A stretch of 64,000 nt of DNA from an uncultured Pseudomonadota bacterium (lineage in GTDB: Bacteria > Pseudomonadota > Gammaproteobacteria > Steroidobacterales > Steroidobacteraceae). Positions 31,883-35,105 of the stretch are shown one piece after another. Under the pieces are notes generated by a model. It did no database searches. It was not told the origin of the DNA and saw only the letters and a program-made list of their open reading frames with translations. The translations under genes and the position numbers were made by a program. The stretch is taken from NCBI GenBank assembly GCA_903838705.1, contig CAILZL010000040.1, positions 62,001-126,000 of the forward strand. Reading direction: 5' to 3'. Each line of letters opens with the position of its first letter. The stretch's first letter is position 1.

Positions 31883-32242
31883 ATGCCCCATCCCACTGCC
31901 ATCAAGCTCCGCACCCAATCAAGATTGCTCGCCATCACCTTTGATGATGGCAGCAGTTTTGAACTGCCCTTTGAATACCTGCGCGTGTACTCACCTTCAG
32001 CTGAAGTGCGGGGTCACGGCCCCGGACAGGAAACCCTGCAACTGGGCAAGCACACGGTGGGCATCAAGTCACTGGAACCCACCGGACACTATGCCCTGCG
32101 CATCGTGTTCGATGATGGCCATGATTCCGGCCTGTACACCTGGAGTTATCTGCACGAACTGGGTAGTACACATGCGCAGAAATGGCAGCAGTATCTGGAT
32201 CGCCTGAACGATCTGGGGATTACTTATCCCACTAAGGTTTGA
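31883..32242 (+). CDS. DUF971 (gamma-butyrobetaine hydroxylase-like N-terminal) protein
   Basis: LLAITFDDGSSFELPFEYLRVYSPSAEVRGHG...IKSLEPTGHYALRIVFDDGHDSGLYTWSYLHELG. Confidence 0.93.
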   Translation: MPHPTAIKLRTQSRLLAITFDDGSSFELPFEYLRVYSPSAEVRGHGPGQETLQLGKHTVGIKSLEPTGHYALRIVFDDGHDSGLYTWSYLHELGSTHAQKWQQYLDRLNDLGITYPTKV

Positions 32243-32345
32243 TGATTAGCAGAGTAAGACGTATCTGCACGATCTTGGAGCCAAGAATAAGATGCTCCAA
32301 AGTGAAACGTCTTTGCGTTATGAACTAGGAGCTTAATGAATAAAT

Positions 32346-32876
32346 TCAACGCGAAAGAAATTTAGTAATAGCACCCACAAGAGATGCCTCGTTTGGAGAG
32401 TTAATGATGGCTAGTGGGACATGAAGCTGTTGACACACAATCTCTGCATGTAACAACTCCTCCGCAGCGAGATCTTCAATTTCATTTACATCAGCCACAG
32501 CACCATCCCTTGCCGCAAGTCTCCTTGAAATAATATTTGCATCTTCCTTTAGAACCACAGCACCGACCAGCCTTAGCTGAGCAAAAACATTACTTGGCAC
32601 CCTTGTTCGTCCGCCATTGATTGCGCGCAAGACAAAGTGGCCATCAAGCAATATATCCTTACCGGACTCACGCTTCTGATTGACAGCTCGGATTAACGCC
32701 AGTTGATTGATTTCAACTTCCGCAGTTCGCTTATCTTCGTCCCATGAAATTTGACCCCGCTCCTCTCGAATAAGTTGGCTTGCAGTGAAGTGATCAATAC
32801 CAAGCCGTCTAGCCACTGGAATACCTAGAAACCCCTTACCAACGCCATGCACGCCGGCAAGAAAAATCACGCTCAT
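32346..32876 (-). CDS. P-loop NTPase, adenylate/nucleotide-kinase-like
   Basis: MSVIFLAGVHGVGKGFLGIPVARRLGIDHFTASQLIREE (Walker A GVHGVGKG), ILLDGHFVLR (Walker B-like); ATGA overlap with upstream gene. Confidence 0.75.
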   Translation of the reverse strand: MSVIFLAGVHGVGKGFLGIPVARRLGIDHFTASQLIREERGQISWDEDKRTAEVEINQLALIRAVNQKRESGKDILLDGHFVLRAINGGRTRVPSNVFAQLRLVGAVVLKEDANIISRRLAARDGAVADVNEIEDLAAEELLHAEIVCQQLHVPLAIINSPNEASLVGAITKFLSR

Positions 32877-33337
32877 TTACGAGCACCCACCTTGAGCAGC
32901 TTTTCCAGTTTTTTCAACTCCTTTGCGGCTAAGTACCTAAAGGATTGCGGTGATGTAAATCCATTTATTAGGCGGCGTGGATTAACAGGTTTTTCAAAAA
33001 TTCGTACATTCTCCAGAAGCATAGCGTAGCCGGTTGTCTTTCCTCGGAAGTAGTCTTGCAGCTCTGTCTTAGTTAATCCGCCACCATTATTCTTAGCGAG
33101 CATCCATAGATCCGACAGATCCGCTTCAATTGTATCTTTCACATCAACCATCGCAACAATTTCCTGTACGGGTGACGATGAGTAGATAACTATAGCTCCA
33201 ACAGAGTTCGCTGGAATTGCACGGCGCAGCTCAACGCGCTTGCTTCCCGCAATGATGAGATCAGCGTACTTTGGCTTGACGGAAAGCAATATCGTGCTAC
33301 CGACCGGAGAGTGTAAGTAATTTGAAATATGAGTCAT
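32873..33337 (-). CDS. ASCH-domain protein
   Basis: TILLSVKPKYADLIIAGSKRVELRRAIPANSVGAIVIYSSSPVQEIVAMVDV (ASCH/PUA-like signature). Confidence 0.78.
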   Translation of the reverse strand: MTHISNYLHSPVGSTILLSVKPKYADLIIAGSKRVELRRAIPANSVGAIVIYSSSPVQEIVAMVDVKDTIEADLSDLWMLAKNNGGGLTKTELQDYFRGKTTGYAMLLENVRIFEKPVNPRRLINGFTSPQSFRYLAAKELKKLEKLLKVGARK

Positions 33338-34784
33338 CTGAAATCTTTGTTATGGATTGGATAGGGCCTGACACGATACCTTCGTTTTTCAGGTTTAAAT
33401 ACTTAACGGGGGTAACAAGGTGTATTGCAAGTCGGAACAGCATCACCTTAGTAGGCGTGTCGGCCATAGCCTCAATTTCTCGATAACTATAAACAGTTCT
33501 TCGACTCACTAGCTGCATTATATTTGCTGCACCTTGATGCAGCTCATATCGCTCTACAATACCCACAGAAGTCACAGCCTTATCGTCACCTGTTCTGTAA
33601 AACAGCACGACGTCGCCAGATTTTACTTGGCTTGTTTGTGCCTTACATAAATATGCTTGCTTTATTGCATTTCCAGCCGTCGAGCCACCTCCGAATAATT
33701 GCACTTGTTGCAACAGGTCAGGAAATAGGATTTCATGGTACTTTGGTTTTATTGGCACCAGAAATTTCTGGACACTGTCATCGCTTCGATAATGAGGAAA
33801 ATATAATTTTGCATAGTCAAGGGCTGAAAGGTCGCTTTCAGGCGGTGATATGGGATGTGCCTTTACCAACATGATGTCTTGTTTATATTTCCCGCGTTGC
33901 TTAAAACCGAAGTCTTCGAGCAAACTTAACAAGTAAACCTGATCCTGATTTGTATGAACGAAAATATTCTCACATCTGTTTTCTGTTGCGAACCGGAATG
34001 CAGCCTTTAGGAAGAGTTCGCCAATCTTTTTGCCACGAATTTGCTCACCCACTTTGAACGTACATAGCTTAAGCGCAAGCCCTGTAAGAAGTTCATTATC
34101 GTTATTTATTACTTCGTTCTTCTGTATTGCGTAAATACAGATTGCCTCAACCGTGCCTCTGTTTGATCGTGCGATCCACGCCTTACGTCCCGTCTGCGCT
34201 TTTTCACGGAACCAATCATCAAAACAATGATCTGGAGCGTTATAGCTGCTACGCAAGCTATCGAAAAACGGAGAATTCAATTGCGTGGTAAGGCTGTACA
34301 TGGGCACATCCTCAATATTCGGAAGACAGACTGCTGCCGGCTCATCTAAACGCCGAAGCCAGTCCTCCGCCGTTTGGATGTTATAAACCTTATGACCAAG
34401 CCCGGCTTGCCTCGCTTTGGTATGGATGCCTTTGTCTTCGGTGACTAAAGCATGTACGGCTGAGCATTCCAATGCATAGAGAATATCGTTATCACATGCG
34501 TCGTTTTCTGATGTTTCAGCAGAATTTCTAGGGCTTGATTTCACGCCTTCTAGTTTGGTGTACTGCTGTAATCTTCTTAGTGTTCGCGCACGTCGCTGGC
34601 TGTCTTTATCCCGCTCAATATCAAGCATGGTGGCCGGGTGATAAAGCAACTGGTGACCTCCACTATTCGCCAACCGAACAAAGCTGGCAAGATTTTCTTC
34701 AAGCACAAGCAAAGAGTCCTGCAGGGGAAGCAGGACGTTAGTATCGAGCAAGAAGCGAAGACGATCACTCAAAACTAGGCCCAA
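33297..34784 (-). CDS. PIN - GNAT - PUA/ASCH-like triple-domain fusion protein
   Basis: N-term PIN: LRFLLDTNVLLPLQDS, MLDIERDK, ACDNDILYALECSAVHALVTEDKGIHTKA; middle GNAT: CTFKVGEQIRGKKIGELFLKAAFRFA...LLSLLEDFGFKQRGKY; C-term PUA/ASCH-like: FLVPIKPKYHEILFPD...GDVVLFYRTGDDKAVTSVGIVERYE. Confidence 0.75.
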   Translation of the reverse strand: MGLVLSDRLRFLLDTNVLLPLQDSLLVLEENLASFVRLANSGGHQLLYHPATMLDIERDKDSQRRARTLRRLQQYTKLEGVKSSPRNSAETSENDACDNDILYALECSAVHALVTEDKGIHTKARQAGLGHKVYNIQTAEDWLRRLDEPAAVCLPNIEDVPMYSLTTQLNSPFFDSLRSSYNAPDHCFDDWFREKAQTGRKAWIARSNRGTVEAICIYAIQKNEVINNDNELLTGLALKLCTFKVGEQIRGKKIGELFLKAAFRFATENRCENIFVHTNQDQVYLLSLLEDFGFKQRGKYKQDIMLVKAHPISPPESDLSALDYAKLYFPHYRSDDSVQKFLVPIKPKYHEILFPDLLQQVQLFGGGSTAGNAIKQAYLCKAQTSQVKSGDVVLFYRTGDDKAVTSVGIVERYELHQGAANIMQLVSRRTVYSYREIEAMADTPTKVMLFRLAIHLVTPVKYLNLKNEGIVSGPIQSITKISDDSYFKLLTLSGR

Positions 34785-35105
34785 TCGCCAGCAGACAAGG
34801 TCCTGATTCTTGGTACTTCATTTCCAAATATTCCCTCATCATTAAATGACAGTCGCGAATTAAAATTTTGGCCAAATGATTTTAGCTGCTAGGTAACTGA
34901 TTTGTCGAAGGTTAGAGGTTATGTGAGGTTTATGGGCTAATGACGGTTTCAACGGAAACTCTCATTCCAAAGAGCGTCCATTAGCACAGGTAATAGCTCC
35001 GGCAGGCCACCTGCTCGCTGCTGGACTGATTTGAGGTATGAGTTCATAGCCCGAAACCTGCCGCGACCCGCTAGAATGCACGGGCTTACCCGCACGAGCC
35101 AGATC

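Follow-up and report, generated by a model that had tools for sequence, protein, structure and literature searches.

What does a protein that carries a PIN, a GNAT and an EVE domain in one chain do in an uncultured Steroidobacteraceae bacterium, and which partners does it have? The gene lies at 33297-34784 of the window, by which we mean the whole 64,000-nucleotide stretch of DNA that was analysed. A sequence-only reading had singled it out at these coordinates, which hold, with the gene on the minus strand and the plus strand of the same interval riddled with stops. That reading covered the effector gene and overlooked the two genes that share its operon, which runs along the minus strand from the effector through an ASCH gene to a kinase gene. 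The features are as follows:

32243..35049, no strand assigned: inserted segment with the operon, between DUF971 and ubiE; GC 45%, against 54% for the window
32346..32876, minus strand: gene for an AAA_17/adenylate-kinase-like P-loop kinase of 176 aa, overlapping the ASCH gene by 4 nt; an accessory found at a minority of loci
32873..33337, minus strand: gene for an ASCH protein of the PDC-M11B family, 154 aa, overlapping the effector ORF by 41 nt; motif GxKxxExR; closest solved structure ZmASCH (5guq)
33297..34784, minus strand: PIN-GNAT-EVE effector gene of the PDC-M11A family, 495 aa from TTG 34784 or 491 aa from TTG 34772
33303..33779, minus strand: EVE/ASCH (PUA-like) domain of the effector, residues ~336-494
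33855..34316, minus strand: GNAT domain of the effector, residues ~157-310; loop RGKKIGE (250-256), with Lys/Arg at 253 family-wide against the canonical Gly
34335..34760, minus strand: PIN domain of the effector, residues ~9-150; acidic set D14, D55, D98 and D117, plus D95

Translation of the effector probably starts at TTG 34772 rather than at TTG 34784, because the close relatives L027-L029 begin there. The protein has three domains, PIN, GNAT and EVE, in a single chain, which the PADLOC model PDC-M11A matches across residues 10-493 (E=4e-133). In Pfam searches Acetyltransf_1 scores above the cut-off (5e-5), while PIN_3 (0.0016) and EVE (0.056) fall below it for this member; in a set of 63 relatives the best values are 4e-7 for PIN_3, 9e-10 for GNAT and 3e-5 for EVE. 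An AlphaFold2 model (pLDDT 91.1, pTM 0.84) matched the acetyltransferases NatF/Naa60, NatD and Ard1 in Foldseek, and its C-terminal part matched ZmASCH. No PIN structure occurs among the 50 matches listed, and the PIN assignment therefore rests on profiles and residues. The triple fusion with a PUA/ASCH/EVE-like C-terminus, as first proposed from the letters, is thus borne out by Pfam over the relatives, by PADLOC and by AlphaFold2/Foldseek, with Foldseek recovering the GNAT and PUA-like folds, and Pfam profiles together with conserved acidic residues the PIN domain. Purifying selection acts on each of the three domains, as judged against L027-L029 (dN 0.14-0.21, dS saturated).

The predicted PIN active site of four acidic residues is essentially intact and near-invariant across the family, with D14 present in 62/62 relatives, Asp or Glu at the position of D55 in 62/63, and D98 and D117 in 63/63 each. 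The conserved acidic positions that the sequence-only reading had expected are thus present, with the one it placed in the stretch MLDIE corrected to D55. Its GNAT signature fared less well: the fold is recovered by Pfam, AlphaFold2 and Foldseek, but the canonical acetyl-CoA loop Q/R-x-x-G-x-G/A is replaced in the family by G-x-K/R-x-G-E, and neither the window effector nor the 63 relatives satisfy the consensus. The fourth position, canonically Gly, holds Lys/Arg in 62/63 relatives and Ser in the remaining one, and the first is Arg in only 27/63; in several PIN-less phage or prophage relatives the loop reads G-T-R-x-G-E. As Lys/Arg replaces the loop Gly, this domain may or may not bind acetyl-CoA.

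The idea that this is an undescribed system does not survive. Bell, Wolf and Koonin (2020; PMC7641849) described "(PIN)-GNAT-EVE + ASCH (+ AAA_17)" as putative toxin-antitoxin modules and predicted a toxin-antitoxin or anti-phage role for the family, none of the modules having been characterised. The window agrees with their modules in domain order, the ASCH partner gene and the AAA_17 ATPase gene, and the family surveyed here agrees in its association with type I restriction, its HTH-ASCH variants in alphaproteobacteria and its ASCH-HsdS fusion. Both the effector and the ASCH protein (PDC-M11B, E=5e-46) match the PADLOC candidate defence system PDC-M11, whose model lacks a kinase, whereas the window operon has one. 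The operon is a member of an already described family, to which we add the ASCH pairing and orphan asymmetry, the link to ZmASCH, the conservation of PIN and GNAT residues, and the effector::ASCH and ASCH::kinase fusions. Bell et al. associated the PIN domain with host defence and GNAT-EVE with prophages, but PIN-bearing copies also occur here in viral-classed contigs and in the provirus psiM100; our scan of viral contigs found such copies with an alignment query, whereas a single protein query gave zero matches. Escherichia phage PhiR47_2 (PV340567) encodes a further relative, the GevT/GevA pair. Its GNAT-EVE protein is a homologue of the effector's C-terminal two thirds and its ASCH protein a homologue of the effector's ASCH partner; the pair lacks the PIN domain and lies between cI and kil in the lambda-like early region of the phage. 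The labels GevT toxin and GevA antitoxin are the submitter's annotation in the record of this E. coli phage; a literature search for GevT/GevA or PDC-M11 found no paper and no toxicity or defence experiment.

A single pattern scan across genome contigs yielded 275 effector relatives in bacteria and archaea, and locus counts refer to the best 80 of these, which span both domains of life. An ASCH gene adjoins the effector at all 77 loci with downstream sequence, three further loci stopping at a contig edge; it precedes the effector in one group and follows it elsewhere, which needs one change on the effector tree. PIN-less proteins need two changes, but L056 counts as PIN-less only because its row ends at a contig edge, and the PIN-less proteins hence essentially form one clade. 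Natural fusions join the effector to ASCH in a single ORF of 633 aa (L160:1-1899), which is useful for predicting the complex, and ASCH to the kinase at L053, L056 and L162. At six archaeal loci ASCH is fused to HsdS as judged by length, with HsdS confirmed by Pfam in L091. A 728-aa relative on a Caulobacter plasmid (L170:304-2487) has the profile order GNAT, PIN, EVE with an ASCH gene alongside, and a Sinorhizobium plasmid encodes a 7-cyano-7-deazaguanine synthase (L021:2236-3585) about 2.4 kb upstream of the ASCH gene in the operon.

Enrichment near defence genes, suggested earlier as a check, is seen in the family but not beside the window copy: 28/80 loci have an HsdM homologue within 9 kb, against ~3% expected from own-genome density (a rough estimate from one genome), whereas the window copy is solitary, flanked by housekeeping genes and with no hsd genes beside it, unlike the type I restriction association of the previously described modules. 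PrrC, an anticodon nuclease embedded in the EcoprrI type I restriction locus, offers an example of an RNase within hsd loci that is a possible guard of restriction. It belongs to a protein family unrelated to the PIN-GNAT-EVE effector, and it sits within hsd loci whereas the window locus does not adjoin any.

The low-GC segment of ~2.8 kb that carries the operon occupies a junction (window 32242-35050) that varies within the genus (L131, L133, L156). In the same-genus genome G113 (L131) the site is empty, with 14 bp separating the flanks; in G112 the junction holds methionine sulfoxide reductase (msrA/msrB) and thioredoxin-type genes, and in G111 an insert of ~0.9 kb with a small gene. We considered the DUF971-ubiE junction as a defence hotspot and rejected this, since the site is variable, yet its other cargo is not obviously defensive. 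Effector relatives occur in 10/217 genomes of the family Steroidobacteraceae, six of them remote, and in 0/3 other genomes of the same genus, while the nearest relatives, 75% identical and with the gene order of the window, are from Polaromonas and Hydrogenophaga, whose flanking DNA has no match to the window. From this patchy distribution, the empty site, the low GC and the close relatives with unrelated flanks, sequence comparison indicates that the operon was acquired by horizontal transfer. G243 has a close relative (L014; segment identities of about 54-73%) whose reading frame is interrupted by a stop and by frame changes, with ASCH and kinase intact. The remote relatives (L006, L007, L009-L012), effectors of ~480-515 aa with about 24% identity from other genomes of the same family, have no ASCH gene detected within their ~1.5 kb flanks and are possibly a separate subfamily.

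The ASCH partner has a characterised homolog. ZmASCH (ZMO0922) of Zymomonas mobilis has a solved structure, binds nucleic acids and cleaves single-stranded RNA in vitro (PMC5615036); the text of that paper mentions no toxin, operon or acetyltransferase, and in the literature the neighboring ZMO0921 is described only as a "hypothetical protein". ZmASCH matches PDC-M11B at 5e-29 and the ASCH family by phmmer at 1.6e-13, and by these scores this characterised single-strand-specific ribonuclease is a PDC-M11B-family protein and belongs with the window protein. The ASCH half of a predicted model of the homologous L053 ASCH-kinase fusion (327 aa, pLDDT 90.2) matches it in Foldseek with a TM of about 0.8. 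ZmASCH-like proteins occur in 12 genomes among 399 sampled Pseudomonadota, with an effector-family match, full or partial, alongside in 12/12 (partial only at L158, L161 and L169); on plasmids, 20 of the best 25 ZmASCH-like places lie <=400 bp from an effector match. Across 116 ASCH family members the GxKxxExR motif is present in 111, and the cleft residues of ZmASCH are kept in 116 (Tyr47), 115 (Tyr90), 115 (Arg32), 112 (Gln127) and 113 (Ser128). Of its single-strand ribonuclease residues, Tyr47 and Ser128 are thus conserved in the window family but Lys53, a contributor to binding and cleavage, is kept in only 51/116 and replaced by Gln in the window protein. A different activity is known from YqfB, an ASCH member that hydrolyses N4-acetylcytidine with Thr24 as nucleophile (PMC6972931). 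We considered the window protein as a deacetylase of this type, a "chemical antitoxin", and excluded it, as the nucleophile position (Thr24 in K-x-x-T) is Glu in the window ASCH and in 115/116 family members.

The third protein matches Pfam AAA_17 (9e-15) and no PADLOC PDC-M11 model; it shares the P-loop sequence GVGKG with its nearest relatives, and the kinase half of the L053 model matches adenylate kinases in Foldseek, with which an alignment profile search agrees. The kinase gene is present at 15/80 loci, and its presence needs nine changes on a tree of 107 effectors, which makes it an accessory gained or lost repeatedly.

The association of effector and ASCH is asymmetric in phages. ASCH is present in each of the 16 phage records that carry an effector relative (effector without ASCH, 0/16), whereas 10/26 ASCH-bearing records lack an effector at the tblastn threshold; for six of these ten the surroundings of the ASCH gene were read, and profiles gave no effector match there. 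MismyG has a small ORF annotated as GNAT, perhaps a remnant, ahead of ASCH, and some of the orphans may come from other ASCH subfamilies. A direct case is psiM2 (L174), which is 99-100% identical to psiM100 (L002) on either side of a deletion that has removed the effector and kept ASCH. Broken effectors, few in number, leave ASCH intact in every case; as the effector gene has three times the length of the ASCH gene, this carries little weight by itself. As in the layout of type II toxin-antitoxin pairs, the genes overlap and the effector never occurs without ASCH (77/77 loci, 16/16 phage records). The obligate pairing and the phage orphans together point to an antitoxin-like behavior of ASCH.

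On balance, we think it reasonably probable that the operon is a mobile toxin-antitoxin-like, and probably abortive-defence, module in which an RNA-targeting effector is restrained by an RNA-binding ASCH protein. The PIN domain, with its acidic site intact, would most likely cleave RNA, the EVE domain would help to select the substrate, and the GNAT domain might add or sense an acyl mark or serve as a substrate- or cofactor-binding module. ASCH would bind RNA via its conserved cleft and hold the effector in check, whether by docking onto it directly or by occupying or processing the RNA on which the effector acts, and the kinase would be an optional accessory, perhaps acting on a nucleotide or RNA product. 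The sequences themselves show the fold, the residue conservation, the pairing, the asymmetry of the orphans and the mobility; that RNA is the target, that the effector is toxic, what triggers it, which partner controls the other and what the kinase does are inferred. In favor of this reading we count the invariant pairing, the phage asymmetry (16/16 against 10/26), the psiM2 deletion and the GevT/GevA naming, together with the PIN acidic residues, the purifying selection, the HsdM neighborhoods (28/80), the ASCH::HsdS fusions and the cleavage of single-stranded RNA by ZmASCH. Against it stand the possible other-subfamily origin of some orphan phage ASCH proteins and the housekeeping flanks of the window copy, with no restriction system beside it; the effector::ASCH fusion L160 further argues against a labile, proteolysed antitoxin, a stable subunit fitting better. 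The proposal of an RNA-targeting conflict effector with built-in recognition, made from the effector's letters, is still the best hypothesis for that protein.

It is possible, though unlikely, that the operon is instead a base modification system, in which the GNAT acylates a DNA or RNA base, EVE and ASCH serve as readers of this mark, and PIN destroys RNAs that bear or lack it. Bell et al. credit this idea to Iyer et al., themselves suggest an aminoacyl-tRNA target and favor modified DNA as the target of ASCH (PMC7641849), whereas the ZmASCH data point to RNA. Two PUA-superfamily reader domains within one operon, the archaeal fusion of ASCH to HsdS and the capacity of ASCH members such as YqfB to act on acylated bases would suit such a system, but with Glu at the YqfB nucleophile position this ASCH family fails the residue test for a YqfB-type eraser, and the acetyl-CoA loop is non-canonical. 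We regard as rather unlikely the joint reading that the ASCH partner is an RNA-binding antitoxin whose orphan copies in phages shield these from cellular PIN-GNAT-EVE proteins and that the GNAT, with its family-wide loop Lys, is no ordinary acetyl-CoA acetyltransferase, either using another donor or merely sensing a ligand by which the PIN nuclease is licensed. Improbable, in our view, is a stable RNA-processing or decay complex used in defence or stress, with ASCH as a working single-strand ribonuclease subunit like ZmASCH and the kinase finishing the ends: the L160 and ASCH::kinase fusions and the conserved Y47, Y90, Q127, S128 and R32 would accord with it, but the loss of Lys53 does not, and it leaves the orphan phage ASCH unexplained. 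That the operon is a decaying island of functionless domain remnants in this genome, as its patchy distribution (10/217 and 0/3 genomes) and the broken copy in G243 might suggest, is very improbable, being contradicted by three intact, overlapping reading frames and a low dN under purifying selection with saturated dS.

The toxin-antitoxin-like module that we favor thus belongs to a widespread family, found in restriction loci and viruses, whose mechanism is so far predicted, and the window copy is itself an ordinary, intact member of it. The tie to ZmASCH, with its solved structure and RNA-binding cleft, and the antitoxin-like asymmetry offer a concrete start for experiments.
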